This document shows, one piece after another, positions 9,001 to 64,000 of a stretch of 64,000 nt of DNA. The position numbers and the translations under genes were made by a program. Within the stretch, counting starts at the first letter, position 1; every line of letters begins with the position of its first letter. The stretch lies in contig OZ007569.1 of NCBI GenBank assembly GCA_963931925.1, positions 18,706,482-18,770,481 on the forward strand, read 5' to 3'. This DNA comes from Onchidella celtica. Lineage: Eukaryota > Mollusca > Gastropoda > Systellommatophora > Onchidiidae. A model generated the notes under the pieces. It had not been told where the DNA came from. It was given only the letters and a program-made list of their open reading frames with translations, and did not search any database.

Positions 9001-9513
9001 TCCGCACGAATGTCGCACATATCTTCAATCAGTTTTTAATGATGTCGCACTTCCTGCAATCAGTTTCTTATGCTATAGCAAATGTTGCACTTACCTGCAA
9101 TCTGTACGAATGTCGCACATTATTGCAATCAGTTTCTAATGGTGTTGCAAATGTTGCCCCTACCTGCAATCAATTTCTCTCTCTTGTAAACACAGCGCAG
9201 AGCAATCTTCATTTGAGGTGCCAGGTCTGGTGACCATGGTCATGCCCTGAACCGAATCTGGGGATCGGATGTTTGTGTATAGACAGAAGAAGAAGAAGAG
9301 TGGAGTACATTAAATGTACTATGTATTGTGTATTTTATAATTATATTATAACACCTGTCTCCACAAAGTAGACCCGTAGCCCTTTACAAGAATATAGTAT
9401 TATCTCTCTCTCTCTCTCACACACACATACACGCACACACGCACACGCACACACACACACACACTCTTCTTTCTCTCACTCTTTTCTCCCCCCCCCCCTC
9501 TCTCTCTCCCTCC

Positions 9514-16000: not shown

Positions 16001-16220
16001 AGCATCACGAAGAAGGTATTGGACTGGAATCCCCAGGGCAAGAGATCAAGAGGAAGGCCGCGCGGAACGTGGAGAAGAGCCAGAGAAAATGATGTGCAAC
16101 GAAGCGGAAAGACTTGGAATAATGTAAAGAGGCTGGCCCATGATAGAGAGGGATGGAAGGTGTTTGTTGGTGGCCTATACCCTGATCCAGGGTGAGAAAG
16201 GCAATGATGATGATGATGAC
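13050..16220 (+). mobile_element. RTE-like non-LTR retrotransposon, apparently full length
   Basis: A single uninterrupted endonuclease-RT ORF is followed within 30 bp by a short (GAT)n tail (about 16202-16219), typical of RTE-group 3' ends. The 5' boundary is not defined; about 70 bp upstream of the ATG is assumed to be 5' UTR. Confidence 0.7.
13118..16195 (+). CDS. LINE endonuclease-reverse transcriptase, RTE-like (1,025 aa)
   Basis: The protein nicks target DNA and copies its own RNA. An APE-type endonuclease comes first (ASWNVRSMYE, SETRW, QIYAPTNEA, GDANAKIG, SDHHMLLA, about residues 58-310). The RT follows with LNRGKAAGPDQIPPEAL, NYRGITLLSI, EEQAGFRSNRSTTDQ, LDYEKAFDSID, GVRQGCLLSP and catalytic FADD (residues 769-772). 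The C-terminal part has YLGSIID and RRRWRWIGHTLRRP. Such ORFs are often annotated 'craniofacial development protein 2-like', a name taken from a mis-named retrotransposon fragment. The frame has no stop, so the copy is young and possibly active. Confidence 0.85.
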   Translation: MGKLWLQLGNLHENVNQSFILGEGGASAPVDSMKDNGQSRKDATGPTAPSSSKSLRIASWNVRSMYEAGKSAQVTMEMRRYRLHILGVSETRWIQSGLKQLNTGEKILYSGREDKKHTEGVAIILSQHAQRSLRGWEPYGRRIILASFTTKNKNINMNIVQIYAPTNEATDEDKDDFYNQLQEIVDTLPRKDVNIIMGDANAKIGQDNTGYEDIMGCNGLGQMNENGERFASFCAFNSYVIGGSVFPHKRIHKATWISPDGVTENQIDHFCITRRFRRSLEDVIVQRGADVGSDHHMLLARLKLRLKKQGTRAGTKRRKFQVSLLDGDKKEEFQLTLRNRFKPLVDLEETVDLETHWAKVKGVFTSTCQDVIGEKKVEHKEWISQKSLDLIRIRRDLKERVNASRTRSSRVGNQEEYRASAKEVKKSIKKDKEVFIGMLAEKAEKAATGGHMRILYQTTKTLAGKYGKPEVPVKDYNRKAIFGKEAQAKRWIEHFNSLLNRPPPSNPPDILPARNDLPISCDPPTKAEINDAIKQLNRGKAAGPDQIPPEALKADAAGAAEGLHSLFSRIWIGGKFPKDWKEGHLVKLPKKGDLSNCSNYRGITLLSIPGKVFNRIILKRIQNATDQKLREEQAGFRSNRSTTDQIATLRIIVEQSLEWNSQLIVNFLDYEKAFDSIDRETLWRILRHYGIPEKMVNLIKSMYEGTSCRVVHDGELTDSFDIKTGVRQGCLLSPFLFILVIDWLMKETTSGGRNGIQWTPWTQLDDLDFADDLALLSHTHDQMQAKTTALNKISESIGLRIHPAKSKVLKIVAPLSEQVTVGDQPLEDVESFCYLGSIIDNKGGTEAEVKARIGKAQAAFTSLSKIWRTKDISLKTKLRIFNSNVKSVLLYGCETWNASQACIKRIQVFINRCLRKLLKIRWTDKVSNEIVWKRTRENPVREEIGRRRWRWIGHTLRRPGNSITKKVLDWNPQGKRSRGRPRGTWRRARENDVQRSGKTWNNVKRLAHDREGWKVFVGGLYPDPG

Positions 16221-17805: not shown

Positions 17806-28593
<10,788 letters not shown>

Positions 28594-42762: not shown

Positions 42763-45700
42763 CTGAAAAATAAACGAGAGTTTTAATAATAAACAAGGCT
42801 TTCTAACAGCTTGGTCGTGTGTTTCTAGCCAAAAGGATCAAACCTAAATCAGGCAGCAACTTATCTTGAAAACATCACAGTGTTCGAGCTATTGTTATTG
42901 AAAATGAAGAAATACATGATCAATTTCATGAAATAATACGAAGGAAGACAGCTGTCCCAGCTCTCTCTCCTAACTTCCTACTGAAAGAATAAAAATATTT
43001 TGAGACCTCTCGTGTGAAACTGCAAAGGGGTTCAAAAGAACAGTCGAAATGATGCACTGATAAAGTTTTTGGGCTTTTCACTTGTAAAGAGGCAGCCAAT
43101 GGGCTATCTTCAGAAATTTCTGAGATATTTTGAAATGTATTTGTGCCTTGAAAAAGCAAAAGACAAACTTATCTAGATCTCACTGAAATGCATGAAGTGG
43201 GACTCACTAGCCTAGATAATACTTACTGGAGTACCACTCAAGGACACTGGAACAGGAATTGTTATTATTTGCTGACCTGTAGATGAGAATACAAAATGAA
43301 AGAATAAACACTGTGTAAGTTCAGAATTTTACATCACCAGACAAAATTTATTCACACATGTCTATGTTTAATTATACACTTCTTGTCAACACTTACAAAA
43401 CAGCAATTCAACTTTAAAAAACAATGAGGTCAAACAACATTATAGAAAGAAAGAAGAGAACAAAACCAACAGGATGTCACCAATGTGCTTTGAAAGATAT
43501 GCAACAACCAAAACTAAATGTATACTTTAAGAGACACTTAAATGAAAGATCACTGCTTTTTTGTCAAGCAAACAACTTTTATTTTGCCATTTACAATTCA
43601 AACACTAAAATGGGACATTCGAGGATAGACAAAAGCCAGAATCACTTATTGGACAGGAATTTTCTTCCTCTGAAGATCTCTTGTAGTGTCCCTCCCCAAG
43701 AATTTGAATTTTTCTTTTCATTTATGAAACAGAGTCAACTTTTGTTGAAAGACAGTCACATTAATTTTGCCCTTAGCAAGCCAGCCATACACAGTTCCTG
43801 GCAGTCAGATTTTCACGTGCTCTTCAACATCAACAGTATTCCTCAAATTTCGGTGGTGGTTCTTATATTTCCTGTCGTCCTTTTTTTTTTTTTTACCTGC
43901 TCCATAACAAAAACATTAAGAAAAGTTAGCAAATTTTACAAAAACATTCTTCTTATGAGCTTTGGGTATCTCAGTATGAGTACTGATGCAAAAATATCCT
44001 GAACCTGAGACATAATTCGCCACTGCCAACTGCAATACACACATACAAGCTCGTACAAATTCAACAACACACAAAACACTATTCACTAATTATAATATTA
44101 ATGCTCTCCTTATTTAGAAAAATCCAGAACTGCAGGAAATTTCCAGAAAATTCACATCCCTGGAACCTTCTCAAACACTGATTCCACTTACCTGAAGATT
44201 GATCTGCTTGTGTCATGGATATTGCTGTTGCAGGCTGTTGAAAGTTGAAGATATTTTGATCATGGAGATTCTGAGTGGGTGTGGCATACACAATTCCTTG
44301 AGGTGTATGGTACATGACAATTCCAGGTGTCATCCCTGTTTGTGGAGTGAACAATAGTGAACATTAGTCTAGTCAGTTAACCCTTTCATATCACCCTGAA
44401 CCTTTTGGGTGCAGGCCGTTTTAAAACCAATCAATATACTGTTCGCCCATAAGTTGCTGCCACTCGTGCACCCTGCACCACTTGCAATAACACATAGTTT
44501 TGTAGCACATACTCTTTCCATTTTTTGTGTTTGTAAACATACAACTGTCATTATTCTTCTCTGAATAAGCTTGCCAATGATACCAAAAACCATATTATTG
44601 AATATGAATTTTCAAAAACACTCCAAAATAACGCTTACACAGGTAATAGCCACTACAAAGAAGAAATGTACAGTGGGCATGCAAGATCCATGATCCCTGC
44701 GATGTGCAAAGGTTAAACAAATCCTCATCCATCTCATGCACGAGCATACCAATAACTTTCCCACCATATAGGACAGCATTTCATGGTTTTGGTGAGATGA
44801 GATTTTTTTATGCTCAGACAAGCACATAGCAAAAGCATTTCTGCTTATAATTTCAAAACTATTAACTCCTGGCCTGCCACATATATTTCCATTCATATGC
44901 CAGGTGCAAAAGGGGGCAAAACAAGCAAACCTAAAATATTACACTCTAAATGCCACGCTTTCATAATGCACGCAAATGATGCAAGTACGCAGGGGAACTA
45001 ATAATCATAGTTCGGGAATTGTCTCCACTTAAGAAATGCATACATTTTAGGCCCAGAACAGTTCCGGACACATGACAGTAAAGTGAGATCAGACAGACCG
45101 GAACAGTTCCGGGCAAAGCAGGGAAAGATTGATAAGTCACTTTGGGAGAATACAAGTCTCACCATGAGCAATGATAGGGTGGCCAGAAATCAAAACCACC
45201 ATAATCATTGATAGGCCAGTATGTGAGATGGTCTACAAAATGCAATTACCAATGGTAGAAAACTTGCCTCAGAACTTAACTCATTGTGTGCCAATCACCA
45301 ATATATCAATTTTTCCACCGGTCATGTTTGTGTCAATCACCAATGTATCGGTGCACAAGAATGCTAGGCTATTTCGTTTTGGGATGAAAGAAAGTCAACT
45401 TTCTATTAATAAATGTTGCTGTAGTTAATCTTCATTCATCCTCCCCACTATTTTCTTACTGTATCGGCAAACGTGGAAAAATTCTTGGCACACAAAGAGT
45501 TAATAAGTTTCATCAAGTCCATCTTCTTCAAAATCAGATATAATATGTTTCTTTTGATTCGATCCAAATTAAAAGTCCAGAAATATTCTTCTTCGTAAAT
45601 ACAAAGCCTTATTTATGGGTAAAAGAAACGGGTATATAATCTAAACGATGGTTTATCTGCAACTTCAGCACCTGGTTACGTTGAGAGTTCCAGTTTATAA

Positions 45701-48700
45701 TTTACACATGGCCTGACAATATTACATTGGTTACTACATCCTCGGCATATTTATGAATGATACGTCAGCTATTACTGTATTAGTACCAAAATATTATGAA
45801 CACATATTAAAAAGCTTCACACTAGCGATCCATGACAACTTTTTCTCCGGGTATTTCTCTCACCTTGCATTATATTGATGGCTGATGGAGTGCTGGCTGG
45901 TAAAGGTGTGTTCAATTCTCCTGTTTGATTGTTCTGACTACTTGAAATTGTTTGGCCTGCTGGAGGAAAACAAATGAACAAATAAATATAAGAATGGCTG
46001 TTGTTATAAGTATGTATGCATCCCAAGCATTCTGCGCTAGGGGTGCGTACATATATGTACCTATTCCTTACCCCATCCTTATCTTCAACCCTAGATCTTA
46101 TCGAATCCCTAATCCTGTCCCCTACCCTTTCAATCAAAAAACAGGAAGAAAACAAAAAGATAATCTGAAAGAATAATTTATTAAGGCTGCTGTTAGGAGT
46201 ATTTCCGGAGGAGCTTTCTAGCTCTGGAGTCAAAATAGGCGTTAAAATACATACCCCTCGCGCAAAATACTTGGGTGGCATGCATGCTTGTCACAACATT
46301 CTATGAGAATATCTGAATGTCAAGAATAATTTGATACCAAAAAAGATCTTTTTGTTAGTCATGCAGCTTATCTGTTGTAGTTCAAGAAAATTACATCAAA
46401 GCTTTCCATTTTACACCTTCATCTTGTGCTATAAGGTAAAGGCTTCCAGATTCTTAAATTTCATACTGATATGTGAGGGGATGGCACAGAATTGATAATA
46501 CACCACAGCCGACCAAGCTGAGAAAATCGACCAAACTGATAGATGGGATAAAAATCTATCATTCTGTTATGATAGCAGACATGACATCTAATTTGGCAAA
46601 AACCAAAGCTGTATTTCAGTCCCAATCATCGTTTTACTCAATTTCCTCAACTTTGGTGGTTACGACATGTTGCCAAATCTGGGTCGTCACCACACATATT
46701 GAATGTGGATAGAGCAAAGTAGACAGAAGTAAATATGGTGATCAGTTCATCTGTGCAAATCTCAAATCTTTCAACTGGGCATGTTACTCATTATAAGCAC
46801 GATGACAAGATATAAGATGAACCATAAGCTACAACAAAGAAAGGAAATAAAAATATGAGTAATAAATTACCGTACGTAAAATATAAATATTATACTGAAG
46901 AATTTTAGTGGGCACTGAATTCAACTATGATGCCACTACTCAAGAAATGAGCACTAATAAAGAAAAATACAAATGGCATTATAATAAATCATGGAATCAT
47001 CTACCACTCACTGTTCAGAGCTGATACAACTTGACTTAAAGATGCAGGTTTCAGTACATTTTGAGACTGAGATGACTGAGCCACTGTGAGTGCTTGACTG
47101 TTCGGTTGTAACATAGAGATTGCTGCACCTGTAACACAAGATCGATAACATAGTGACAGAACAGTCTTGTAATAAAAGTTCCTCTGTTTTTTGTTGTTGT
47201 TTTTTAGGTCAGAAAAGATATAAAAAATTGTAAATCCAATCCTGAAGTCCTTATCCTTAACATTGGTGGAGAATTTGTTCAATGTTAACTCAAGACTACT
47301 TTTTGGAGAAATCATAGCAAACATTTTTGGTCTGTTTCAAAATACTAAATTATCATGAGACTGTGCCAGATGCAACATATTTTCCCAAGAAGTTTTATTT
47401 ATTTCCAAGGTCAGTGACAGATATTCAACTAGCAAATTAACCTTCCCCTAACTACAGTCAGTGAAGCTAAAAATCAAATCAAATATCCAATTCCTATCAA
47501 CAAAATAATCAGTGACAAAAAGACATAAAACACTTGTTTTCTAAGGCTTCCTTTTGTTGCTATTCTTTACACATAATTAGTTAATTAGTTCCATTTTCCA
47601 CTTTGCCAGACAAATCAAAGTAAGCAAGCTAAATTTTCATATTTTTCAAGATTTTATAATAAGCCAGTTTTACTTAATATTAGTCGATATGTTGATAACA
47701 AATAAAGCATTTATTTTCTTTGTGTGATGAATTATTAAATTTAAAATTAGTAAAATCACTAATTTTCAGTTGAAGAAAATGTGGCTTTTGAGTATGAAGA
47801 AGTTTCCCACTGGTGCTGTATAGTCTAAACTGAGACATATTTCTTAATGTCTATTCAAAAGGAAAACGCTCTAAAATATATACCATGTTATAAAGGAAGT
47901 AAGGTCTCTAATGTAATCATGAAAGGCTTTTTAACCGCTGAGCCTTAAATTCTACAAAATATCATATTGCGCATAGAACGATGTAAATGTGTACGTACAC
48001 ATTATAAATGGTCTTGAAATTTGCTATATACTTTTGTTGTTTTTAACCCACAACTGAGTTGAATGGCGGGAAGTGTTTTGACATTTTGAGCCGGAGAAAA
48101 AAAAACGCATTTTCTTCCGGCAGACTTAAAAGTATTACAGGAAATTTCGTTCTGCCCCTCAGTTTACACATTGGTGAGCAAAACTCTTTAAAAATTACAT
48201 CTGTGCATTCCCCGAGTCAGTGGGCCAACTTGTATGTGTAAAAACTAAATCTTTCAAATATGTCACTGTTTATTCTTTTTTAAAATGATATAATGTCTTC
48301 ATAAATTTGTATACCTTGCTGAAATATAAGTGGAATCTGCATTGTCTGAATATTGCTGGCTGTGGTACTGCTGGGAGTACTGTTGGCACTGATAGTAACA
48401 GTTTTACTGGTTACTGGGACAGTGGAAGGGTCTTTTGTGACAGTAGCTGCTGGGGCGGTTTGGAAGGAGAATGATGGCACTTGACTGACAACTTGTGTGA
48501 CAGCAGGGGCTGGGGCAACTTCCCTGGCGGGCTGAACTCCAGTTGGCTGCTCTGGTGTAGAAGTGGAGTTGACAGGTGTTGGCATGGGGAAAACTGGCTT
48601 CATGTTGGAGTTTATAAGCTGAAATAGAAACAAAAAATAAATATATATTTACAAGTTAACATTGCAGTCTCTACAGAAGGCTGCGTTTTCTGGGGTGTGT

Positions 48701-51700
48701 GTTGAAGATTCTTATTTACAGACGACCACAACCATGGGCTTTTGTGCATCTTTTCATAAACAAAAAGTCCGGTTATAACAGTCCAGGTCGGGTAGCAGGG
48801 CAGACTTGTCCCAACTGGCACAGGGCTCGTCCTCCTCTCTGTGGCATCACCTCCGCTGACGGCCAACGGCTTCCCAGCATGGCATAGCCAAACATGCTCC
48901 CGAACATCTGGTCTGGTCAACCCTAAGGGACCTGACATCTTGGCCTGTTTTAGTGAATCTTCGGGCAAAAATATACGTTCTCTGGAAGGTCTGCCATTCC
49001 GCCACTGCTTGAAGCACCAGTTTAAGCTTAGCCTTAAGCAATAGGTTTCCAATAACTATGTGATAGGTTTGAAATACACGGTCAATTCATTTTAAATACC
49101 AGTATTCAGAAATGCTATACATATGCAGACATGGCCACATCGGAACGTTACATCCTGCCAAATGATAACGTGGCTATGCCTCTGAAAATATTGACCAATC
49201 ATAACTTCCAACTTGTGTGCATATGTCTAGGAAAAAGAAAAAAACAATGTATGTCTGTAAAATTTTGTGGGGGAGGGGGGGGGGGGGATGTCAACCGGTG
49301 GAAGACATGGGCAAAATACACTTGCAGGACAGGGTAACGATGTTAGGGCGTGAACCAAAGCAACTGAAAATTTCGCGAAGACTGATAAATTGTCCTGCTT
49401 CAGCTTCGTTAAAATTTGCACCTAGTACCTTAAATTCTTTTTTTATATTAGGAAATGGTATGGCTATATTGTCATGACGGCCACCGGTAATAGCGAGCCT
49501 ACAAATCAGCTGAAGGTATTATCATGATATACGTTGTATATGGGATCTAAAACGCAGAAACAGTTTGGACATATGGATAATACATATTAGGATTCTCCCG
49601 AATTTCGGTAACACCTGCTGCTACAAGTTCGGACAATGTTATAATTTGTATAGATCTATATACATGTATATAATTATGTATGCAATCGATTCACTCCTTA
49701 AGTTAATGCAGCAATTTCTCTGCATCACAGGACAACTTGGAAATAGTCGGCTTGCTAATGTTATTTTTATCAGTTACCTCGGGTCACTTGATCTTCCCGA
49801 ATAGATAATACCAGAGGCTATTATGTTGGATAAGAAGAAAGAGGCACGTACAGTAAGTACTTCGTAATTCCCAGTACATGCGCTGGTATTATGTCTCTCA
49901 TACATTACGTTTTATTCATTAACTTACATTTTCCGCGATAGTGCTGCCTACATAGTTGAACTACTATTGTTCTAAGCTGCCTGCCAAATAAATTATTGTT
50001 ATACTTTCAACAAAAAAAAAACTATTATGTAAAGTGCCAGAACCAAAGGCGCTTAAAACGTCCCTATGCGCTGCCAAGGAGTTTTTACATTTACTATGTG
50101 GCTTTTCTCCTTTCTAAAGCGGTAAAGCTAAAACATGTACAGTTCAACATGTGGTCTCCAAGTTGAACGCTCGTTGGCGAATATACGGTACGTATTACTA
50201 TGCTTGTATGGCCGACTTCATTTCCTTCATCTTATGGGGCAGATGTGGGAGGGCTTGGAAAAACCTACACAAGCCATTATGCCAGTAGCGTGCGAGCGCG
50301 AGAGCATCCCACACGCGCCTTACCTGTGCTATGGTATTCTTTAGGAACACGGTTCTTCAGATGCGCTTAAACGGGGTGGGAAAGGTGCCATAGCCAAGGA
50401 GGGGAGGGGACCAGAATTCAGTTGGAAAGAGGTTTATTCTGGGCCTACATTTTTGGCGCACACAGGTAAATTATGGTAGAAATCTGTGAAAATGGGAACT
50501 GTAAGTAGGGCGAACGTAAAGTTGGAAAGGCTAAAGAAGTTGAGTATCATTCCATGGATAAGGTGGCCCCCTCCCCAGGTCAATCCCAGGAAATATATAT
50601 TACATATATGACATGTATTATATTTCCAGACGTAGGCCACTATCCTTGTTCCCACTATGCACGCTATGATTTTAATTATTATGTTGAGGGAAAACAAAAG
50701 ACGAAGGAAAAGTCTATGCATACAAGTCAATGGCATCCTACTAGGATTTCAACTGTCCTCACGTATTATGCAGTGTGCAACCACATGCTAAGTATACAAT
50801 AATGTAGATGGGTGTGCACAGTGGTGTACCATCCACGTGGAGCTGTGTAAAAGTTACATAGGTTAATTTCCATAAGCCAACGGAGGCAAATATGCTAATG
50901 GTGGAAATATCGATAATGTTGATTACGAACGTAGATCCATTTTACTGTAAAAAAAATAAATGAATGCACTGAGAGAGAGAGACAGAAAGAGACAGAGAGA
51001 AGAGAGAGATGGGGCCTGCAGTATGTCATGTGCACAGAAAGAAAAGACATTCTGCCTACAAATTAAATCCACTGCCTGTTTACGATTAACAGCTCTGTGT
51101 TGTGCGTGGGCCAATCTAATTCAAATTTACTTTTATTTTACGTGCTATTTACACCGCACATAATTTTGTTTTGTTTTGTTGGCAATGTAGTCAGATAGAG
51201 ATGCAGATGTGCTTAGCTCCCGACCTACACACGACTTTTCCTTTCTCGTAAGGCAAGGAGCCAAATAGAGCGAGTGGCTTTGTATGCACGGTCCTTGCCT
51301 TTAGCAATGGCAGGAATATTTGTCTAAATATAGCACAAACTGCGCCCCCCGCTGCCTTCCCAAGCATACGCACAGTGTTTGGTGCTTAGTACGCAAACAA
51401 TTTAAGCTATATACCATCTTTGATATCTCGAGCCTAGATTTGAGAGTGAGCGGGATTACAGATTCTCGGTGAATATTACCAATACGGTAAATTGGTATTT
51501 CATTTAAACGCCAGAACCAACCAAAGTGCATAGTATGCAGTAAAATTCTGATATTATATAAACATGAAACTTGGTGATCACGTTCCAGCAAAGTTAAACA
51601 AACTGATTAAAAATTTAAAAGAATGACTCTAACAATGAAAGATCACCTAGCTCTACTACAGATGTATGTTGAACAAGCATATGCTGGTTCGCACGTACGC

Positions 51701-54700
51701 CATAATCAATTAAAGGCCGATGAAAGCACACCCATACATGTATACAAAATACGCCTGAACAACTGAACATTTAGATAGACCTGCTCTAGTAGTGTGATTG
51801 TTGAATCTAGATTAAGCTTGTTCTTGGCCCCAAGTTCGATTTTATTTTTTTTTTTACATTTTATAATCCATTTCTTCTTTCTTCGAACAGCTGCAACACT
51901 CTGTTCACCTGAGAAGTTATCTGGTATCTTGACTCATATTAAGTCGAACAGCAGCCTCACAAAAACGTACAGCGTCTCGCCCCACCCATTTCTCCCTTTA
52001 ATTTGGCTTAAATGGTGATGGGAACTTAAAAACTACGATTTTCTCAGCATCATTATGGTAGTTACTTCACACTTTTCATTTCTTACTTTTTAAAATTTGT
52101 GTAAATTACGGTCGGATCACCATTATTGGTTTCACTGTAAAGCATGAATGAGAATTAAGTAAGTGTGGTCAATGAATTAAAACACTGAAAGTGGGCATTT
52201 GTTTGTTTTTCCTAATTAGGCATGTAAAGTTGCAAAATGTGAAAAAAAAAAAAAAAAACTGCTTTGTAGAAAGGATTACTACCTTAAGATTGATATCTTC
52301 CCTCAACTGTAAATTGGTACATGGGTTTTTGTGTCAAGACCGGACTCCCTGAATTCAGATTTGACAATAAGAAAACCACAAGAGACACTATAAAACATGA
52401 CTGATACAATGTTTATACTGCAGTAAACTGTTGCCTGGGTAACAAAGTGGCAAGATCTGGCCTTACAAGTTTCCAAGGTTGATAATTTTTCAGTACTGAT
52501 CTATTATTTATAATTAAAATAAAAAAACAAAGCGCAGGTCTTCCAGATCAGCCCTTCATAGCCATCTCTGAAGTAATACAGACCAAACTTTTTGTGCAGG
52601 TTCATTTTAGCCAAAAATGGTACCTTTTCAACATTTCATCAATATATTATAATTGGTCGGGAAGTGTTTTTTTCAAACTTTGTTTGATGCACAGATTTCG
52701 GGCACAACAATCACTTTGCATCCGCTCTTGACTTTTCCTAATATCTAACATGCCTTTTTTATTAGTAAAATATTGAAATATCTCAGTATTTCAAGGCTAA
52801 ACTTGCCCTTTTCAAATTTATTGTTATTGGGTTATTCTTAGTCCCATTATTGGTCAAATTATGATGTGAAAGGAGGCCATCCATAAAATATATATTTGGT
52901 GCTTTTAGACCATCCCACCCCTTCCTCCATGCACATTTTTCAATGTGAATGTCCATGATCCACTGGTCCAATGAGATTTGATCACATTATGCATGGACTA
53001 TTCTACTGTTGTTCCAGAATATAAGATTTTATTTAGCCTCCCCCTTTATTTTCTTATATATTCTACCTCTTTGCTATGCACTCCTCTTTTTCTTTTTTTT
53101 TTGTATTTTTTGTTTCTTCAATCACTCGCCTTTCCCATGCATTCAAAGGGTTTCAATTTCAAAGATCAAGTTTTACCTTTCAACAAGCTGACAGGTTAAA
53201 ATGAGTTACAAATCCCCGTTGATAAAAATTGAACAGATGACCAACCAAGCACTTTTGAAAATCTCGAAAAGCAAACAAGCAAAAGACCTGACATTGTATA
53301 ACTGAGAATAAAACAACAGGATGTGTGGTTAACACATAAGAAGATGTGCAGCGTTCTTACACTGCCAGGCCATTCATTCTCACATTTTGGACAAACAATC
53401 AAATTGTAAGCAAGTACCTGCTTTGGCTGCTCATCTTCTCCAACAGCACATGACAAATCTGTTTCTTCAAACCCTGATGGGTTCATCCTCTGTTCTAAGG
53501 CATTTCCTGGGGGTGCACCAGGTTGAGGATCAGGAGAGTTTAGGCAAGTCTGAATAAGGGCTTTCCCACTGTCACTGGTGATCATGGGCTGTAGTTTTCG
53601 AGTGGCAAATGTGTACACATGTCCAGTTTCACTGGCAACAAGTAACATGACCTGTGTGCCTGTAAGTGTTGACAATTCATAGGCCTGGGGATAGGAAAGG
53701 CAAGAAGTTGAAACATTCAAAATTACTATATGACAATTCCTGTGCCATTTTTCTTTAATAAAATAGTACATAGTAATTCATTATTCATAAATTGTTTATT
53801 AAGCTGGGCACAGTACTAAATAAATACTTGTAATCAAACATATAGTACAGATAAATGAGGAGTCACGGTGTTTGCATTTTTTTTAAAAAGGGCTATAATT
53901 GACGCCAGTTCATCCCATGGATGTCTTTGTGACATCAAAACCCTTGCATTCACACACATACATTTGTCTGTTGTTGTTTTTGTAACACTAACAGTGGAAC
54001 AAAAATTAATGGTTGCATGAAGGTAGTATAAAATTTCTTAGAAGTCCCTCACATATGGACCACAAATGAGTGCATGCTTTCCATTGATTATTCGACGGTG
54101 TAAAGTGTACGGCGCGGTGTCTTCTGAACTATTATTTTAGCAAATACGGTAGATGGTATACAAAACGTGAGTAGCCTACTGCTGTCCCAAACGAATTCGA
54201 GTAATTTCTTTAAACTTGAAGTTTGTCTCGATTAATTCGTGAGAAATAAAACACAATATCCAATTTACACTGATAATACATTTGTAACTTATGAGTACAA
54301 TTACGTGCGAAGACCTTTTTTTTTTTTTTAACCATTTTATTATCAGTTGCAAAATATCATGAAGTCACGTTAGTTGAAAAGACTTACCTTTTTCATGATA
54401 CCCGTCTTTCGCTTACTGAATGTTGTGTAGCGTCGCAATTTATTTTCAATAAATTCCATTTTAATCTTAACTCGTCCTTTTGTCTTTTTCCCTGGCTTAA
54501 GTCCAGAATTGGAAGCGTTTTGCTGAAATCCATGTCCTTGATTAACTTGACCAAACCCAGCTGCATCCGTATCAGAATCACAATCATCATCGTCAAGACT
54601 CGGATCAACTTGTTCGAATATAAAGTTTTCTGGCATTGGCTGACTGTTTCCGTATATGTTACTGTTGCCTCCTCCGTTTATACTCGGTACCCCCCCACTG

Positions 54701-54825
54701 CTGATTTTGCTCAAACTAGTTTGGGTAAGGTTTTGCATCATGTCGAGAAAGGAAACGGCTCGTTTACTATCCACTACCTTATTCCGTAGCCTTCTCCATA
54801 ACGGGAATAGTGCCCATGTAAGCAT
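42670..54825 (-). CDS. SRF: Serum response factor (MADS-box), 8 coding exons, complete (502 aa)
   Basis: A nuclear MADS-box factor that binds CC(A/T)6GG as a dimer and works with ternary complex factors and MRTFs. Coding exons (minus): 54825-54388, 53684-53418, 48618-48315, 47128-47012, 45959-45864, 44335-44192, 43276-43227, 42762-42670; 1,509 nt, all phases agree. The MADS box starts at residue 117 (GRVKIKMEF, RRYTTFSKRKTGIMKK) and is cut by intron 1 before AYELSTLTGTQ. The SAM extension (LLVASETGHVYTFATRKLQP, GFEETDL) is near-identical to vertebrate SRF. The C-terminal half is Ser/Thr/Pro/Gln-rich, as in the SRF activation domain, and ends in a basic KKAKK. An in-frame TGA lies 9 nt before M1; M29/M30 are alternative starts. 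Length is close to human SRF (508 aa). Confidence 0.96.
43227..43276 (-). CDS. SRF: SRF exon 7 (50 nt)
   Basis: Acceptor CATCTACAG, donor CCA|GTAAGT. GQQIITIPVPVSLSGTP corresponds to the vertebrate SGTVQIPVSAVQ block. It is too short to stand out as an ORF; phase and homology support it. Confidence 0.85.
44192..44335 (-). CDS. SRF: SRF exon 6
   Basis: Acceptor CCACAAACAG, donor TTCAG|GTAAGT. The GIVMYHTPQGIVYATPTQ segment corresponds to the conserved HMMYPSPHAVMYAPT block of vertebrate SRF. Confidence 0.9.
44377..44716. mobile_element. TTAA-flanked MITE in SRF intron 5 (diverged ends)
   Basis: The left end TTAACCCTTTCATATCACCC and the inverse of the right end TTAACCTTTGCACATCGCAG are similar but not identical. 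Length is 340 bp. Confidence 0.45.
45276..45503. mobile_element. TTAA-flanked MITE in SRF intron 5
   Basis: The left end TTAACTCATTGTGTGCCAA matches the inverse of the right end TTAACTCTTTGTGTGCCAA with one mismatch over 19 bp. It holds an internal tandem of TGTGTCAATCACCAATRTATC. Length is 228 bp. Confidence 0.7.
45864..45959 (-). CDS. SRF: SRF exon 5
   Basis: Acceptor TTCCTCCAG, donor CAAG|GTGAGA. It encodes GQTISSSQNNQTGELNTPLP. Phase 1 at both ends. Confidence 0.8.
46001..46296. mobile_element. MITE with TACGTAC-type ends, copy 2, in SRF intron 4
   Basis: The left end TTGTTATAAGTATGTATGCA mirrors the right end GCATGCATGCTTGTCACAA. The interior is related to the element at 7934-8258 in reverse orientation. 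Confidence 0.7.
46486..46555 (+). repeat. Short dispersed repeat (GAATTGATAATACA), copy 2
   Basis: Partner of 29868-29935, inside SRF intron 4. Confidence 0.6.
47012..47128 (-). CDS. SRF: SRF exon 4
   Basis: Acceptor GTGTTACAG, donor AACA|GTGAGT. It encodes ISMLQPNSQALTVAQSSQSQ and is Gln/Ser-rich. Phase 1 at both ends. Confidence 0.8.
47855..48200 (-). repeat. Interspersed repeat, about 330 bp, copy in SRF intron 3
   Basis: Reverse-complement partner of 28884-29215, sharing long phrases in order with moderate divergence. Confidence 0.75.
48315..48618 (-). CDS. SRF: SRF exon 3 (start of transactivation region)
   Basis: Acceptor CTATTTCAG, donor CAAG|GTATAC. It is Pro/Thr/Val/Ser-rich with few charged residues. 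It follows a 4.8-kb intron and is in phase. Confidence 0.85.
48700..49050 (-). other. GC-richer island with open frame in SRF intron 2, unassigned
   Basis: A 146-codon minus frame runs from 49052, with a second overlapping open frame. It is GC-richer than the flanking intron and shows no recognised domain. The frame runs straight into SRF exon 3 without a stop, but a good acceptor at 48620-48619 separates them. It could be an old transposon piece. Confidence 0.25.
53418..53684 (-). CDS. SRF: SRF exon 2 (rest of MADS/SAM)
   Basis: Acceptor ATCCCCAG, donor CAG|GTACTT. It encodes residues 147-235: AYELSTLTGTQVMLLVASET through the GFEETDL motif. Confidence 0.96.
54388..54825 (-). CDS. SRF: SRF exon 1 (N-terminus and first half of MADS box)
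   Basis: It encodes residues 1-146. The acidic DDDDCDSDTD stretch and the PGKKTKGRVK basic arm precede the DNA-binding helix. The donor is AAG|GTAAGT, phase 0. The start at 54825 is the first Met after an in-frame stop. Confidence 0.93.
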
Positions 54826-54997
54826 ATGAATTCATCCGCGACAAGAAACACCAAACAGTTTCTTCTCCTCTTGTGATTAGCATTCTGTTATTTTTTGTTC
54901 ATTTATTGTTTGCAAAACATATTCATGTTTATTATTTATATTTTAATGAATGAGACTAGTTTTCGTCCAACAGCTAGCATCAAAGTTTATGCGGATG

Positions 54998-55006
54998 AAT
55001 ATTTAA
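54998..55006 (-). promoter_or_regulatory. TATA-like element of SRF
   Basis: Minus TTAAATATT lies between the CArG cluster and the start codon. It would place transcription start near 54970 and leave a 5' UTR of about 150 nt. Inference only. Confidence 0.3.
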
Positions 55007-55009
55007 GTG

Positions 55010-55018
55010 CACTTCCTA
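55010..55018 (-). promoter_or_regulatory. ETS core next to the CArG cluster
   Basis: CACTTCCTA (minus TAGGAAGTG) has a GGAA core 15 bp from the nearest CArG box. It is compatible with a ternary-complex-factor site. Short motifs like this also occur by chance. Confidence 0.4.
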
Positions 55019-55031
55019 TACATGGCAAAGG

Positions 55032-55083
55032 CCATTTTTGGTATTGCACCGGTTCCATATAAGGGGTTGGCAGCCAAATATGG
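55032..55083. promoter_or_regulatory. Three perfect CArG boxes (SRF binding sites) upstream of SRF
   Basis: CCATTTTTGG at 55032-55041, CCATATAAGG at 55055-55064 and CCAAATATGG at 55074-55083 all match CC(A/T)6GG. They lie 207-258 bp upstream of the SRF start codon. Centre-to-centre spacing is 23 and 19 bp, close to two helical turns each. Vertebrate SRF promoters also carry CArG boxes and are autoregulated. Confidence 0.85.
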
Positions 55084-56998
55084 CCACCATGCACAAATAG
55101 GGAAGAATGAATTTCCAGTCTAAATACACACTGTGTTCAATTCACGTTCAAGAAGAGCGGGACAGCTTATCGATTCTCTGAAAATTGTCAACCATCCATG
55201 TATGGACTGTTTAAGTGACTAATACGCTATTTGCAATCACTTTTAAAAAAAAACAACAAAAAAACAGCTGCGTCTGAATTACGCAATATAAATCGATAAC
55301 GCAGAAGGAAAAGAATAGGCGAGAGGCAGCTAGCAGGTCGAAACTAAATCCTGGCGAGGATTTACTTTAATAACCTTATTTGTTGTTTCTTTTTCTTTCC
55401 TCACTTTCACCTCCATTCTCCCCCTTTCTCTAATGGGGAAACAATCACGGTGATACAAGTGTATATATCCTGAGCCATCTATTTCTTCAACACTAAATTA
55501 GGTTCGTTTGTCTGACAACTCAAATTGCTTTGACAGGGTACGTAAGAGTTTTAGTTCTGGAAGTACTACATTTACAGGACTATAGGCTTTTTTTTTTCAA
55601 CATTATCACAAAGGTGTTCATTTTCTTACCCCACCCCTTGCTCTCTTTTCATATATTCATTCCATATAGACGTCAATGACACAATAAATGTTTTGTTCAC
55701 ATATGCCTGTATAGTTGCTGTCGGCTAGTTTTAATAAAAGATGTCTGTGGTATCTCTTATTTGATAATATCTAAATTGTATGAGATTAAAGTATACAATT
55801 TGAATTATCATGTTAGCTGACATTATGACTTAATTTTTTGCTTTTGCGGTCAAAGCCTTATGAAACAGTAGCACGTGAGAAATAGGGGTGGTAGCATTAC
55901 GACATAATCATTGAAAAATATAGGACCTGTGTTGTACGTAGTACGATATAGGCCTACTGTAATTCTAAATAAGATAATATTTTCCCCCAGGAACTTAAAA
56001 TATGCCTTATGCGTTTACTGAACTCTTTCTTGCTTTTAATTGGGCTGCATCCATCTTATCATGGATCTGCTCTTACTATTTATAAATATAGCACTATAAT
56101 TTTGTCATCATTTGCCTCAGCCTAGCATAACTAGCCCAATAATGGTTGATGCTGTCTACTGTCTGGATCTCTTCCTGGGATCACACTTTTCATAAATTAG
56201 GGCTAGAGCTGGTATATTTTATTATGTCATTCCTTGGCCTGCTCAGATCTCGTTATACACATTGCAATCACTCAAATCATTTCACTTTTAACCCTAAACA
56301 AGATATAAATTATTCATGCCGAGGTGTTTGTAATCTTTTGTAAGTAATTCCATATTACTTCTTTTAACCAACTAAATTCTAATTTAGCTTTGTATACATA
56401 ATAATTGCCATGTTAATATTGTGAAACTATATGTTAAATTATTATTATGCAAGATAATAATTTTGCTGGCTTTATTTTATATTTATTTTGGCAACAAAAT
56501 ACTGTACGCTGTAACTTATTTGAGTTATCACTTTTAATCACTTATTGAAAAGAGTCATGGGCGACATAGCAATTTATTTGGTGTTGATGGTGATGTCGAG
56601 AGTAAATAAAAAGAATTGAAAAGTGTTTATTATTATGTAATATATCCTTTGTCTGTATATAAATAGCCAATATAACAGTGTAAACGAGTCCATTCGTGTG
56701 TGAATTAAAATTTGAATGTTGTTTAGAATGTATAAAGACCTGTGAAACCGAATAATCATTCCCATTCATTCTTTTGTCTTGAAAACCACATAAGAATACC
56801 CAAAATAGAAAGTAGCTTTGAGTCCGAGGGGCGTCTTTCTAGTGGCGAGTGGCCGAAAAGGTCAGATATTGTAACGAAAGACATGCATGTGTACGCAGAC
56901 GATCTGCAAGTGGCAAGCCAACTTTAGCCCAGATAGGAGAAGCATTGGGCTATCTAATTGGGTCAAGGTTTTAATATCGGAGTAATAAGCTGTATATC
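55084..56998. other. Divergent intergenic region between SRF and TKFC
   Basis: AT-rich, no gene supported. No further CArG box noticed. The interval is too long to be an obvious shared core promoter. Confidence 0.5.
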
Positions 56999-57040
56999 AT
57001 GGCGACCAATCCCGGCGGTAACAAAAAGCTCATAAATAAG
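56999..57040 (+). CDS. TKFC: TKFC exon 1
   Basis: ATG at 56999 gives [14 protein letters not shown], aligning with the human SKKLVN start. The donor is AAG|GTAGGC, phase 0. Confidence 0.8.
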
Positions 57041-60000
57041 GTAGGCTACACGTACTTTATTACACAGGTCGAAAACGATCCACTCTATGAACGTGATGAA
57101 TTACTAACGTTCTCGAAGACATGTCTGGACTTCATTTACCATCACCATCAAAGCCCAACGCAGATTCCCTCCTAAAATCCAGAGCAAATAAATTGACTCT
57201 TTTATTTGGATCTCTACCTACTCAACACCTGTGGATGTCAGGGAGTTGCCAGCTTTTTAACTTTTTCTGGACTTGACAATGCATACCTCGTTGCTGCATT
57301 ATGATTATCATCACTCCCTGAGTTCTTCATCATGCTATAAGGCATGTTTTTGCATGTCACCAGCAATGCAATACTCCACGTCCAGAATTTGATCACATGC
57401 ACATTTTAAGTCGTCAAAGCATTAATTTCATTCAAGTGCTGCAACTCAAACTGTGCTTTATGCATTGTTCCTTTTTTTTTTTTTTAAATGTAAGTTTACA
57501 CTGTCTGTGGGCTATGCAAAATGTTTCCTGGTAAGCTAGGTCACTGTTGGCTGTGGTTTTTGAAATTAATATTATAAATATAAATAGCCACCCACTTCCA
57601 TTCCAATGATCGATCTGATTAACATCAATTATACCCATAAAGTGAACATCTCAGCCATGTAGAAATCAGCCATCATGGGTGATTAAGATCAGTCCCAGTG
57701 ATCAGAAAAAGCCTTTATATCTAATTCTGATTGCTGGCATAATTGCCTGATTGTGTATAAGTGGCAATAACAAAACATGGGAGCCCTTGGTCCTGATTTC
57801 TCGAGCTACAAACCTAATGTACAGTAAGAAAGAAAGAGAAATATAAAGTTTGCGAGCTTCTTATTATCATGCATTGCGATTTAACAAATCCAGGTCATGC
57901 TGCATTTGTAATTCCTAGAATTTCTTATTCCATCCTGTTTAAAACGGACAAATTTACTATTTGTTCATAGTATGTTAATTTTATACCTTTACAAAGGAAA
58001 AGGAAACATTTAAATTATTTTTTGTCAAATAAATGTTTAGAAACATGAAGATTTACAGATGTTACAGTAAAGCCTTTCATGTATGTAATAAAACTGACAA
58101 AACAAAATTAAAGAAATGAATTTAATATTTTTACGCCAGCAGCTCAAATCTGTTCTACTACAGAGGATGAAGCAGTTGTGTACTGTTAATAGGTGAAGTC
58201 TTTGTTAATAACTCTTTCGGGACAATCTCCGATTTATCGCCGCCAGTGAAAAACGTGTTTGGACACATCGCTGATTTGTATTCTGCATTCAATTCTCTTT
58301 TGTTTGATGTATACATGTCTAACATTTTACTTTACTTTCAATATTTTTTTTTCTGTAAGCGTTTTTCTGAACCATGCTGTTTTTTTCCAAAGTGGGAAAA
58401 AATTAACTACGCCCAGACTTGACGGAAGCCATCCTGACAGAGTTAAAGGGCTTTCAGCTGCTGATGTTGGCCCCCAAAATAGTGTCCAGAATTACGATAC
58501 AACTCTTAAAATCCCAGTATCACATCATTGTGTGTGGTATGTGTTAGTTCCTTTTATGTATCACTTTCTCGGGACAACTTAGAAGGTAGAGGAGAGACAG
58601 ATGTTCAAATTTAAACAAGGAGGAAAATGTTTGATTTTATAAAAGATTTGTTAAATAGTGTCTGTTTACAGGTGCATGACTGTGAACGAGAATGCAACGA
58701 AGGTCTTGTTGCAGTGAACCCAGGTTTGAGTTTGGTAGATGGTCACACTGTTGTCGTCCGCACTGATGCCAAGGATGTTGTGGCAAGTGGGAAAGTGGTA
58801 CTTATCAGTGGCGGTGGCTCAGGTCATGAGCCAGGACATGCAGGTAGTGACAGGAAAAGTCTAACTCTAATTCCACAAATTAAGAATAATTAGAATCTAA
58901 CATTTGCATGATGTCAACTGAAGATCAAATTTGCCCATATACAGAGTGTCTCAAAAAAATGTATGTTATACTAAACACTTTGATAAGATTTATAATCCAA
59001 ATTAAAAAGGACAGATTTGCAATTATTTGAATTAACACATGTGTTCATACTGATGGCCATTCTCGGCCAGATTCTGATGACAACACAGTTCAGTAGAGTT
59101 GCAAATGATTTTAAACAGTTCATTTGCATGTTTGTGTGCACCCCATACACATATCGATGGTGTTGTGCTCTAACCGTGTAACTGGAAAAAATTGACCACT
59201 CATTTTTTTAGCTAAAAAAAATAGTCACCATGCTTTTCCGGGGATTCCCTATTCAAATGGGAAGTCTACACGCACTATAAAAAGCAAAATTGAGCTTCAA
59301 AGCCTTCAATAGAACAATTCTAACCGTGTATGTGGCTGTTCTAATCGTGTGACTAGTTTCTGTAGCGGAATTTTGTCGTGCTCTAGTCGTAAGTGCCCGA
59401 CAATACTTTGTTTGATAACCGCGTAACAGAATTAGCCGGCTTTAAGACCTGCATTTTAAAAAAAGAATATATTATTATGACAGAAAGACACGTTTTGTTT
59501 GATTAATTATTAATTAATACGACCAAAAAGATATAGTCCTGTATAAAAAAACTTGCAAAAAGATATTTTTTTCGTCTTCTGGAAAACAATCCTGAAACCA
59601 GTTACACAGTTAGAGTACAACACCATCAATATGTTTTCTTGTAAGCTCATTTTGTCAGTTTATAGCCTTGTGGGACATTTAAACGTTATGTGCCAAATTT
59701 CAGCACCAAAGTATGTGTATTGTTCCTTGGTATAGTAATACTAATCCAGAGTTTCACATGAATTTTTTTCTATATTTAGGTTATGTTGGGAAAGGATGCT
59801 TAACAGCATGTGCGTGTGGATCTGTCTTCACATCTCCTCCACCAGGCTGTATCATGGCAGCTGTCAATGCAGCTTGTCAGGAACAAACAGGTTTGTTGTT
59901 TTACTAATGTTTTGATGTTTCTGGTGGATATGATAAATAGTGGATCAGAGCTGTTCAAGACTAAACTTTTACACCACTGCTAGTGAAAAAGGTTAACAAA

Positions 60001-63000
60001 TATCAAGGCCTCTGTTTGGCAACCTGCCCCTTTCAGACTAGATATTTGGTTTCTTTAGTGAGACCATGACATGAGTAAAGGCTCCATGAGCTTAGAAATG
60101 TTAAATTTTACAATTTTTTTATTACCTCACATATTACTAATGACTCCTACATTGAGGTAAAGCCAATATTAAACATTCTTCAAATGTATTTCTTCATTCC
60201 TTTATTTATGGTTCAAAATAATTTCGTCATTCCTTTATTTTATAATTGTTATGATCAGGATGTCAGGTGCTGATGATTGTGACCAATTATACTGGAGACC
60301 GTCTCAACTTTGGCATTGCATGTGAGAGGGCAAGAGTCAAAGGCCACAAGACGGAGATGGTGGTGGTTGGGGAAGACTGTGCCTTAGATTCTGTTGACCA
60401 TTCAGCAGGCAGACGTGGGCTTGCAGGAACTATGCTTATTCATAAGGTAATTTTCAATTGTTAACCCCCCCAGGCTGCATGCAATGGGTAAAGCCCGCTG
60501 ACCAGGGCAGTGACCTAATTCGTGGGGAATCTCATCTGGGTCAGTGACCCTTGCCGAGCTACGCAGCACAACCAGAATCGCAAAGCCACCAAGTGAAAAT
60601 AAAAAGATTTTATAAATCAATGCACAGTTCATTGTTTTGGGCATTTAGAAACATTACGATTAACAAATTGTGCATAGCTTAGATCAGAAAGAGTTAAAGT
60701 GATAACATGTAAACAGCAAAGTTCTTGTTTAATTCTCAGATTGCAGGGGCCATGGCAGAACAAGGGAAAACATTGGAGAACATGGTGTCAGCTCTCAATT
60801 CAATCAAAACAAAAATGGGTAATCCATTGATTATTTTTGTATTGATACTTACATCATCTGTGAAACAGACCAGGGGTCAAACAGTCCTTTCCCCAAATGT
60901 TCAAATAAGTATGTGAAGTGGCAACACAGAATCAGGTCAAAAAAATCAAGCAAAATGATGGTTGGGACCCAAAAGTTACCTTTTTGTGAATTGATAGTAG
61001 ACATAATGATATCTTTAAATTTAGAAAAAAAAAGGAAGAATATTATTTTGAACTCCAACCACCATTTCGTTTGTTTTCTCAACTTGACTGTCTGTGACAC
61101 ATTCCCTAATCCTGTGCTGTCACCTCACATATTTATTTGGACATTAGAAGATAGGATTGTTTCACCCCTAGTCTGTTTATTAAACATTTTCTAAACATAC
61201 TGAAATTTGCAAAATTGAGATCCCAAAAAAAATTATGGACAAAATAGGTGATATGCTGCTTAACTCTTTCCATGCCAAGGCCATTTCCACGTTTGTGCCA
61301 CGGACTTTTTGCTCGCGAAAAATCAAAGCAAGGGTGAATCAGAAAATTGAGAATTTTACCACCTGAAATCATTGAAACCTAAGCATGTTATATATCAAAT
61401 TGAAGGAAAATGGATGAAGAAGCTGAAAAACAAATAAAGAAGTGTATGATAGACAGGAATGTGAAGTACAAGCCAAGTTAAGAGCAGAGTCATGCCAAAC
61501 GAAACAAACCCCAAAATTGATATCGACGATAAATCGTGGGTTGGTTCAAATGCGGTCGGGCATATCGACGATATATTGGAGATTGGCATGGAAAGAGTTA
61601 ATATGTAAGTTGGCGTAGTCTGAAACATTGCATGTGAATGTAGATAATGCATGCAATGAATTATAAATTACTTTTTATTTTGTTTGCTGCATATCAAATT
61701 AGTCATTAGTATGGTACATCTGTTGTCTACATTTTAATCTTAAGCTGAAATTTGAATATGTATGAGCTATACCAAATGACTCACAATGTGCACTTATGCA
61801 TTGTTTCTGTTGTTTTCCATCATAGGCACCATAGGCCTCTCATTATCTCCATGTTCAGTGCCTGGATCAGGGCCCTCATTTACTCTCCAGTCCAATGAGA
61901 TGGAGCTTGGACTTGGTGAGATTTCTTCATATAGTAAATTTAGTAAATCTAGGAATTGTTGGAATGTAAGGAATATTGACAGAGTTGGTGTTACGCACTA
62001 AGTAAACTAGGTGATTGCCGACGAGGGCACTAATTGCTAAATTTGCAAATGATTTATAAAACAGCATCTTCACTGGACATTCAGCATCCATCCATGATAC
62101 TTTGTTAGAGCTTTTTCTATATATATATATATATTGCATAATGTAGGAAAAGGGTGAAATTTCCATAAGAATTTGTGAAGACTATTTTAAGTGAAACAAA
62201 AAAGTCATTATCTCTGATCTCCAACCACAGTTGTGTCACACTAATATAGTGAACTAATGTTTTGGTTTTTTCCTGCTTTTATTTATTTTTTTCTCCCGCT
62301 TTAAATTATTTTAGGTGTACATGGTGAGGCTGGTGTGAAGAGGATGAAGGTAAGTGTCTTGTAATATCTTTCAGTTCTTCTCATGTTTTACCATTTCATT
62401 TGTACATTGTGACACTAGTGATTAAGGCTTGGCTTTGTTGTAATTTTCTTTTATGCAGCAGTCCCACAGTTTTGTCAATTTTGTTTGGACATAATTTATA
62501 ACATTAGTGAAGGCATGACTTTTTATAATTTAGTTACAAGTATCAGTTCCATTGAATTTGTCAATTTTGTTTCTACATTATAACATTAGTGAGGGCATGA
62601 CTTTGCAGTAATTTTGTCAGTCTGTACAGTTCAGTTCCACTGAGTTTTGTCAACGTTGATTGTTTATGAAAATAACTTCAATGAAGGCATGACTTTTACA
62701 GTAATTCAGGTTTTTCTTCTTTTTTTTTTCACCTACGGGTAATGTAGAGTAAGTTGTATTTCCAGAAACTTTGTTTGTTGTATTTCCAAGTGTGAGTTTT
62801 CTGACTGTGTTTTGATTTGGGAACTGAGAGCTTTTGTTATATCGTTTGTATCTGTAGGAAGTAAGGTGGACTATTAAAAAAATACACTTAAAAGTGTGGG
62901 ACGAAAACTTTTCTCATGCAGTTACCAGCTCAGTCTATCTGTGCAGTTTGAAATAATGTTCTTATTTTGAATTTGATAGGTTCAGTCAGCCAAAGAGACA

Positions 63001-63797
63001 GTCAAGATCATGATGGATCACATGACCAATCCACAAACTTCCACACATATTGATATCAAGTCAGGTAGATCTAGCCGTGCCTTGCAGCTTGCATCACATT
63101 TTTTCTTTGAATAGGGCAACAGTTAGTCAGTGCAGCCTGTTTTTTTTTTTTTGTTGCTTTTGTTGTCTATGTCACTGCATATAGCCAGAGACAGAAAGTT
63201 TCATTTTATAACGTACCCATTAGGTGGTTGGTGGGCACTGCTAGCAGTGTCATTGTCTGTCCTGTCAAGCTGTTACATTCTGTCTGTCGTCTTGCTTTTC
63301 CCTAACATAATGTGACCACTTTCGAGTTGGCATGTTTTCTCCAAATGCAAACTCAAAGTCATTTTATAACCAATTGCTTTTTAATGTAATCCTCACATAA
63401 ATGTATTTTGTTGTAATAAAGATGTTTTCAAGACAATCGGAATGAATCTTGTCGAACTGTCATTTTGACCTTCAAATATGGATCTCATCAGTATTTTCAT
63501 AGCAACTCCTTTCGTTTGTGTGTGGGAAATAGTTTGATTTGAAATTCATAATAGAAATTGATCAATAATCTAAAAATTAGATCTTACAGCAACATTGTTT
63601 CGTTAGATTAATTACCTCTACAGTTGATGGATATTGGCAGAGAGAACCTGGGAAGACCCCAAAAAGATCATGTTCATAAATTGAATGTGTCTCCAATTTC
63701 TGGACAGGTGATCGAGTTGCCTTAATGGTGAACAATCTTGGTGGGACCTCAGTGCTGGAGCTCAACCTTGTTGCTAAGGAAGCCATTTCATATCTAG
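56999..63797 (+). CDS. TKFC: Triokinase/FMN cyclase (dihydroxyacetone kinase), first 9 coding exons, partial
   Basis: A cytosolic enzyme that phosphorylates dihydroxyacetone and glyceraldehyde with ATP and cyclises FAD to cyclic FMN. Exons: 56999-57040, 58672-58843, 59780-59890, 60259-60446, 60740-60818, 61826-61915, 62315-62349, 62980-63064, 63708-63797; all junctions are GT-AG and in phase. They encode about 297 residues, most of the N-terminal DhaK domain. GGGSGHEP is at 61-68, D122 is in [10 protein letters not shown], and H230 in GVHGEAG is the histidine that binds dihydroxyacetone covalently. [10 protein letters not shown] and MVNNLGG follow. The rest of DhaK and the ATP-binding DhaL domain lie beyond the window. 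Confidence 0.95.
58207..58245 (+). repeat. Fragment of a TTAA-type MITE end in TKFC intron 1
   Basis: TAACTCTTTC..ACAATCTCC.ATTTATCGCCG resembles the inverted right end of the element at 61260-61601. The other end was not found. Confidence 0.35.
58672..58843 (+). CDS. TKFC: TKFC exon 2 (GGGSGHEP)
   Basis: Acceptor GTTTACAG, donor GCAG|GTAGTG. It encodes [17 protein letters not shown] of the dihydroxyacetone pocket. Confidence 0.95.
59156..59627. mobile_element. MITE with 30-bp terminal inverted repeats, TKFC intron 2
   Basis: The left terminus GATGGTGTTGTGCTCTAACC (59156 on) and the right terminus ending GAGTACAACACCATC are inverted copies over 30 bp with two mismatches. Diverged TAACCGTGT motifs repeat inside. 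No ORF. Confidence 0.75.
59780..59890 (+). CDS. TKFC: TKFC exon 3
   Basis: Acceptor TATATTTAG, donor ACAG|GTTTGT. It encodes [20 protein letters not shown]. Confidence 0.94.
60259..60446 (+). CDS. TKFC: TKFC exon 4 (YTGDRLNFG)
   Basis: Acceptor ATGATCAG, donor AAG|GTAATT. It encodes [24 protein letters not shown] and [14 protein letters not shown]. Confidence 0.95.
60461..60697. mobile_element. TTAA-flanked element in TKFC intron 4
   Basis: It starts TTAACCCCCCCAGGCTGC and ends AGAAAGAGTTAA. Its left 100 bp is the reverse complement of the right end of 40027-40800. The right part differs, so it is a deletion derivative or a chimera. Confidence 0.5.
60740..60818 (+). CDS. TKFC: TKFC exon 5
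   Basis: Acceptor AATTCTCAG, donor ATGG|GTAATC. It encodes [20 protein letters not shown]. Confidence 0.92.
61260..61601. mobile_element. TTAA-flanked MITE with perfect 19-bp ends, TKFC intron 5
   Basis: TTAACTCTTTCCATGCCAA and its exact inverse bound 342 bp. TTAA duplications are the hallmark of piggyBac-type integration. The interior has repeated ATCGACGATA words and no transposase. Confidence 0.8.
61826..61915 (+). CDS. TKFC: TKFC exon 6
   Basis: Acceptor CCATCATAG, donor CTTG|GTGAGA. It encodes [20 protein letters not shown] and NEMELGLG. Confidence 0.94.
62315..62349 (+). CDS. TKFC: TKFC exon 7 (catalytic His, 35 nt)
   Basis: Acceptor ATTATTTTAG, donor AAG|GTAAGT. It encodes [12 protein letters not shown], with H230 equivalent to the substrate-binding His of DhaK. 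Confidence 0.92.
62420..62720 (+). repeat. Degenerate tandem repeat in TKFC intron 7
   Basis: Four diverged units start near 62420, 62506, 62588 and 62682, each with a core like GTGAAGGCATGACTTT then TAATTT. The period is about 83-94 bp. Confidence 0.65.
62980..63064 (+). CDS. TKFC: TKFC exon 8
   Basis: Acceptor TTTGATAG, donor TCAG|GTAGAT. It encodes [12 protein letters not shown]. Confidence 0.92.
63708..63797 (+). CDS. TKFC: TKFC exon 9 (last in window)
   Basis: Acceptor CTGGACAG, donor CTAG|GTAAGG. It encodes [20 protein letters not shown]. Confidence 0.93.
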
Positions 63798-64000
63798 GTA
63801 AGGCGGTTGTGAGGAGAATCTTTTAAGTGGTAACTACAAAGTCACAGATCTGGAATTGTGTGGGTTTAACTACAAACTTTCATTTTCCAGTGTGGTTTTT
63901 CTTCAATGTTAATGTGGCATCTCCTCACTTATATTATAATGTACTGTGACCATTTTCCTCTGCAACATGTGTATAGCCCTTTGATCCCTGGCCTGATTTT

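Follow-up and report, generated by a model that had tools for sequence, protein, structure and literature searches.

The 64-kb window, that is, the whole stretch of DNA analysed here, carries a gene whose predicted protein marks it as a genuine SRF, with a DNA-binding core nearly that of vertebrate SRF. On the minus strand, the coding part of exon 1 (54388..54825) is read from the first in-frame ATG to a GTAAGT donor inside the MADS box. Its frame opens at 54831, just 5′ of the ATG at 54825, and an in-frame ATG pair further on (MMQN) could be an alternative true start. Exon 2 (53418..53684, minus strand), bounded by a CCCCAG acceptor and a GTACTT donor, supplies the rest of the SRF core, and the splice between the two exons is clean and in frame, joining KK to AYEL. 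More candidate SRF exons, read by eye, follow down to ~42.7 kb.

Compared with the PDB, the joined protein matched SRF chains at 3.6e-53 (1k6o) and 6.9e-52 (1hbx, 1srs). The next matches were yeast-type MCM1 (9.7e-32) and MEF2 chains, and the values of the latter (8.6e-9 to 6e-8), set against the 3.6e-53 of the SRF chains, led us to reject a MEF2 identity of the gene. Within the SRF core, 86 of 92 residues agree with the SRF chain in 1hbx/1srs, which in 1hbx is the human protein, and the Pfam family SRF-TF (PF00319) was matched at 5.4e-22. With both an SRF-type MADS box and the adjoining SRF-specific core, the gene is indeed what the sequence-only reading had called it. Pattern scans of bacterial and viral collections for SRF relatives present as contaminants, using part of exon 1 and exon 2, gave 73, 5, 30 and 4 matches, none of them confirmed; the exon 1 scans were insensitive, with most of the peptides used not being conserved and one running past the splice donor.

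On the other side of the SRF start, a dihydroxyacetone/triose kinase (Dak1) gene probably begins with a coding exon at 56999..57040 (plus strand), which encodes 14 residues and ends at a GTAGGC donor. A Dak1 domain was found in frame 58627-58890 (5e-10), and we infer that this frame and the short exon belong to one gene. SRF and the kinase gene are thus apparently arranged head to head, with their start codons 2,173 bp apart. The remainder of the window includes mobile-element sequence. Two long open frames of the non-LTR retrotransposon type, 13103-16195 and 21861-24992 (1030 and 1043 aa between stops), contain endonuclease and reverse transcriptase domains. Pieces of an LTR-retrotransposon-like element occupy 2-3921, in three frames that are offset from each other, with an integrase zinc-binding domain (PF17921) in 2-1741 and reverse transcriptase and RNase H motifs recognized by eye in 2800-3921. 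Also by eye, frame 8850-9233 contains repeated CNQLLM-LQMSHLP-like units. A search for RNA families gave no hit above threshold.

A scan of the window for the consensus CC(A/T)6GG revealed three exact CArG boxes 5′ of SRF, together spanning 52 bp. The box closest to the gene (55032..55041) reads CCATTTTTGG on the plus strand and CCAAAAATGG on the gene strand, which is the minus strand; the middle box (55055..55064) reads CCATATAAGG and CCTTATATGG, and the farthest (55074..55083) CCAAATATGG and CCATATTTGG, respectively. Each is an exact match to CCWWWWWWGG. Counted from the A of the ATG at 54825 to the near end of each box, they lie 207, 230 and 249 bp upstream, so that the triplet as a whole occupies the interval 207-258 bp 5′ of the first ATG in the SRF frame. 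The sequence-only reading, which had placed three perfect boxes within 52 bp at about 210-260 bp before the SRF start, was therefore accurate on both counts. It had also given an approximately two-turn spacing: centre to centre, neighbouring boxes are separated by 23 and 19 bp, which puts the outer pair 42 bp apart, or 4.0 turns at 10.5 bp, and leaves the middle box ~70 degrees off.

The triplet is not the only cluster in the gene. Four more exact boxes (52120..52853), starting at 52120, 52211, 52611 and 52844, lie in SRF intron 2; all four conform to CC(A/T)6GG, as do all three boxes of the triplet. This second cluster is looser than the promoter triplet, and from its sequence it is possibly an intronic SRF-responsive enhancer. 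Outside both clusters, the window holds exact boxes only at 8782, 26456 and 56136.

Could such an arrangement be a mere product of A+T-rich sequence? Two observations speak for this: the G+C content of 55001-56000 is 36%, and the total of ten exact boxes in the window lies within the range of shuffled sequence, where the mean is 5.93 and 8 of 100 shuffles reach ten. The total is hence unremarkable, mildly above expectation. The clustering, however, is not chance, going far beyond what Markov models and shuffles predict. Under a Poisson model, triplets of such span are expected 2.8e-5 to 5.6e-5 times per 64 kb, and four Markov simulations of 4 Mb each produced none, not even within 200 bp. When the proximal 1 kb before the ATG was shuffled, 0 of 5000 sequences contained at least three boxes, and for the region between the SRF and kinase start codons 0 of 5000 contained four. 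When the intronic boxes are considered, at least four boxes in 51800-53400, a region picked post hoc, were seen in 1 of 5000 shuffles, and seven in 51800-55825 in 0 of 3000. Seven of the ten boxes in the window fall within 3.1 kb where SRF begins, for which a binomial test gives 6.6e-8, the region again being picked post hoc. All of these regions were picked after the boxes had been seen.

Control patterns of like composition point the same way. If six A/T letters are flanked by any other combination of two G/C letters on each side, nine distinct patterns result; one of these has two matches only, and the tightest triple that they form in the window spans 1,081 bp, as opposed to 42 bp for CArG. 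Close pairs can nevertheless arise, since one of the nine, CGW6GC, has two matches separated by 36 bp. Boxes with one mismatch, of which there are 87 in the window, show no enrichment near SRF. Given the Markov simulations, the Poisson estimate, the shuffles and the nine control patterns, we reject chance clustering and regard a chance origin of the CArG cluster as extremely improbable, in agreement with the earlier judgement that a triple match of this kind would hardly arise by accident.

A repeat origin of the boxes was rejected as well. Neither 54826-55500 nor 52000-53000 has a second copy in the window by blastn, the two tandem arrays in 44000-64000 both lie away from the boxes, and the repeats in 51800-55400 are short and mostly poly-T only.

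Since the two genes are apparently divergent, the boxes might not act in an SRF promoter and might instead serve the dihydroxyacetone kinase gene, or form an element that is distal or works in both directions. The head-to-head layout, with its 2,173 bp between start codons, is compatible with such a role, as is the additional exact CArG box at 56136. Distance, by contrast, argues for SRF, whose ATG is 207-258 bp away from the triplet, that of the kinase being ~1.9 kb away; moreover, kinases of the dihydroxyacetone type are not known to be SRF targets, which we count against this explanation. Overall, we consider it very unlikely.

The triplet is accompanied by several shorter elements, which are weak and, as read from the sequence, no more than suggestive in the case of the ETS and TATA-like motifs. 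An ETS-type site, AGGAAGTG (55010..55017, on the gene strand, minus), has its GGAA core 15 bp from the first CArG box and is a weak candidate for a site of SRF's ETS partner. With 20 matches to [AC]GGAAGT in the window, the chance that one falls no more than 25 bp from the triplet is ~3%. The TCF consensus, quoted as (C/A)(C/A)GGA(A/T) in PMC516031, has no match on either strand of 54800-55300, and for this reason we did not file the element as a TCF-type SRE. The GGAA core pointed out by the sequence-only reading is consequently present at the proposed 15 bp, while its assignment as an ETS partner site is weakened by the chance estimate and the unmatched TCF consensus.

Abutting the ETS site is a candidate Nkx-type element, TTAAGTG (55003..55009, plus strand), which resembles an Nkx element and occurs 11 times in the window on both strands combined. 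Together, the two make up TTAAGTGCACTTCCT at 55003-55017, and a palindrome of 10 bp, AAGTGCACTT, is common to both. A TATA-like element beyond the ETS core had also been predicted, and two candidates were found there. The first, TTAAATA (55000..55006, minus strand), read from the sequence, overlaps TTAAGTG. The second, TATAAATA (54933..54940, minus strand), is the best TATA-box candidate and would place a start site near 54905-54915; per 207 bp on one strand, TATAAAT[AG] is expected 0.04 times and TATAAA 0.2 times. With simple patterns, 54826-55500 yielded a CAGCTG E-box at 55265 and a single AP-1-like site, located at 55216, and neither a MEF2 site nor GGGCGG or CCAAT.

Another factor might also use some of the boxes, YY1 being an example, and would then counter SRF. 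A simple YY1 pattern, of the GCCATNTT type, matches at 55031 on the plus strand, where it overlaps the first CArG box, and at 55077 on the minus strand, where it overlaps the third. The idea gains from a report that YY1 represses transcription driven by myocardin, SRF and CArG (PMC7732823). It loses from the nature of the pattern, which is short and has letters in common with the CArG consensus, and we think such shared use unlikely.

Taken together, the triplet is real, non-random and most likely functional. Because it sits just upstream of SRF, with its boxes closer together than chance allows, self-control of SRF is suggested, as in vertebrates. Specifically, we consider it probable, judging by the sequence, that the triplet is a promoter-proximal SRF-binding module through which SRF regulates transcription of its own gene. 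SRF dimers would bind one or more of the three boxes, and a co-activator would set the output, MRTF, which answers to actin signalling, being a likelier choice than the Elk-type ETS factors of ERK signalling. The module would be read by a local start near 54905-54915, or at ~54975 if TTAAATA is used, in other words roughly 60-170 bp downstream of the triplet, while the intron 2 boxes may act as a second SRF-responsive element. Were there an upstream non-coding exon, the true promoter could sit elsewhere.

Work on other animals gives this mechanism its context. The SRF feedback loop has been verified in mouse and was described as conserved in all species compared, which were mammals and fish (PMC555765). 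The mouse gene has two CArG boxes in the 60 nt that precede its start (PMC7203814). As for the co-activator, dominant-negative MKL1 blocks serum induction of SRF in mouse cells, and TCF was reported on egr-1 and not on the mouse srf promoter (both PMC516031). With regard to sign, a positive effect upon induction is probable and a brake when SRF is abundant possible; one reporter study saw the SRF promoter repressed by overexpressed SRF (PMC7203814), which implies that the sign may depend on context. SRF homologs bind CArG boxes across distant phyla, and the fly Act88F promoter is described as being without a classical CArG box (both PMC6467476). In a sponge, ISX, used to activate MRTF, raised SRF mRNA (logFC 1.18; PMC9287330). 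This response would fit an old loop, with no CArG sites being shown there.

How old might self-control of SRF be? We hypothesize that the loop is older than the protostome-deuterostome split. In its full form, which we advance tentatively and as one possibility only, SRF self-control through clustered CArG boxes would be an ancestral animal circuit predating that split, made up of two modules (promoter and intron 2) in which the sequence has turned over and the site grammar has been kept. MRTF input, perhaps with an ETS partner, would then set a self-sustaining SRF level in muscle and growth responses, in invertebrates as in vertebrates.

It is quite conceivable, on the other hand, that the boxes are bound by SRF and that their arrangement was gained independently in this lineage, making the likeness to vertebrates a case of convergence. 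This explanation leaves the mechanism untouched and opposes its evolutionary reading only. Being short, CArG boxes form readily, with ~6 expected per 64 kb, and they are said to occur generally in pairs or small clusters (PMC6467476). Moreover, a survey of conserved bilaterian DNA contains, in the portion available, one CArG box, located in the Nr2f promoter; its main text, to the same extent, names SRF once, as the factor that binds (PMC10735318). From that single box, we would expect any conservation at SRF to be one of site grammar rather than of alignable sequence. What tells against independent gain is that the rise in sponge SRF mRNA (PMC9287330) and the conservation among vertebrates (PMC555765), as given in the cited portions, both fit an old circuit, with neither showing homologous sites. 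Among the matches listed in our literature search, outside of which most subscription journals fall, and within the parts of the sources seen, there was no report of CArG boxes in an invertebrate SRF promoter.

A self-regulated SRF promoter is already known in vertebrates and the mechanism is an ordinary one; what is added here is the intronic cluster. The triplet itself offers a clue to how old the SRF self-control loop is. If the circuit does go back to early animals, few self-regulating loops in which both the protein and its sites can be read would be older, and it would make a testable prediction, namely, that all sequenced animals have CArG boxes no more than a few hundred bases from SRF.

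Three known systems invite comparison. The closest is the vertebrate SRF gene, whose own proximal promoter likewise contains CArG boxes. There are two boxes in the mouse and three here, and vertebrate boxes are placed from the transcription start, whereas the 207-258 bp of the present triplet are counted from the ATG. Unlike the vertebrate promoter, 54826-55500 has no GGGCGG and no CCAAT. The present gene also carries its second cluster in intron 2. The likeness is drawn from published descriptions of the vertebrate promoter. The sequence-only reading had held that vertebrate SRF genes use CArG and ETS sites in the same place. In the portions of the papers cited, this is borne out for CArG (PMC555765, PMC7203814) and not confirmed for ETS, a TCF having been reported on egr-1 and not on the srf promoter (PMC516031).

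The second is the c-fos-type serum response element, which shares with our locus a perfect CArG box and an ETS core. In c-fos, the ETS core stands directly beside the CArG box; at our locus 15 bp separate the two, and the flank of the core departs from (C/A)(C/A)GGA(A/T). Both the orientation and the position of ETS sites relative to CArG are said to be flexible (PMC516031).

The third comparison is with the CArG clusters of muscle actin, which resemble the triplet in having multiple boxes in a proximal promoter. Muscle actin genes carry several perfect or near-perfect boxes there. Those clusters control cytoskeletal targets of SRF, whereas the gene under control here would be SRF itself.
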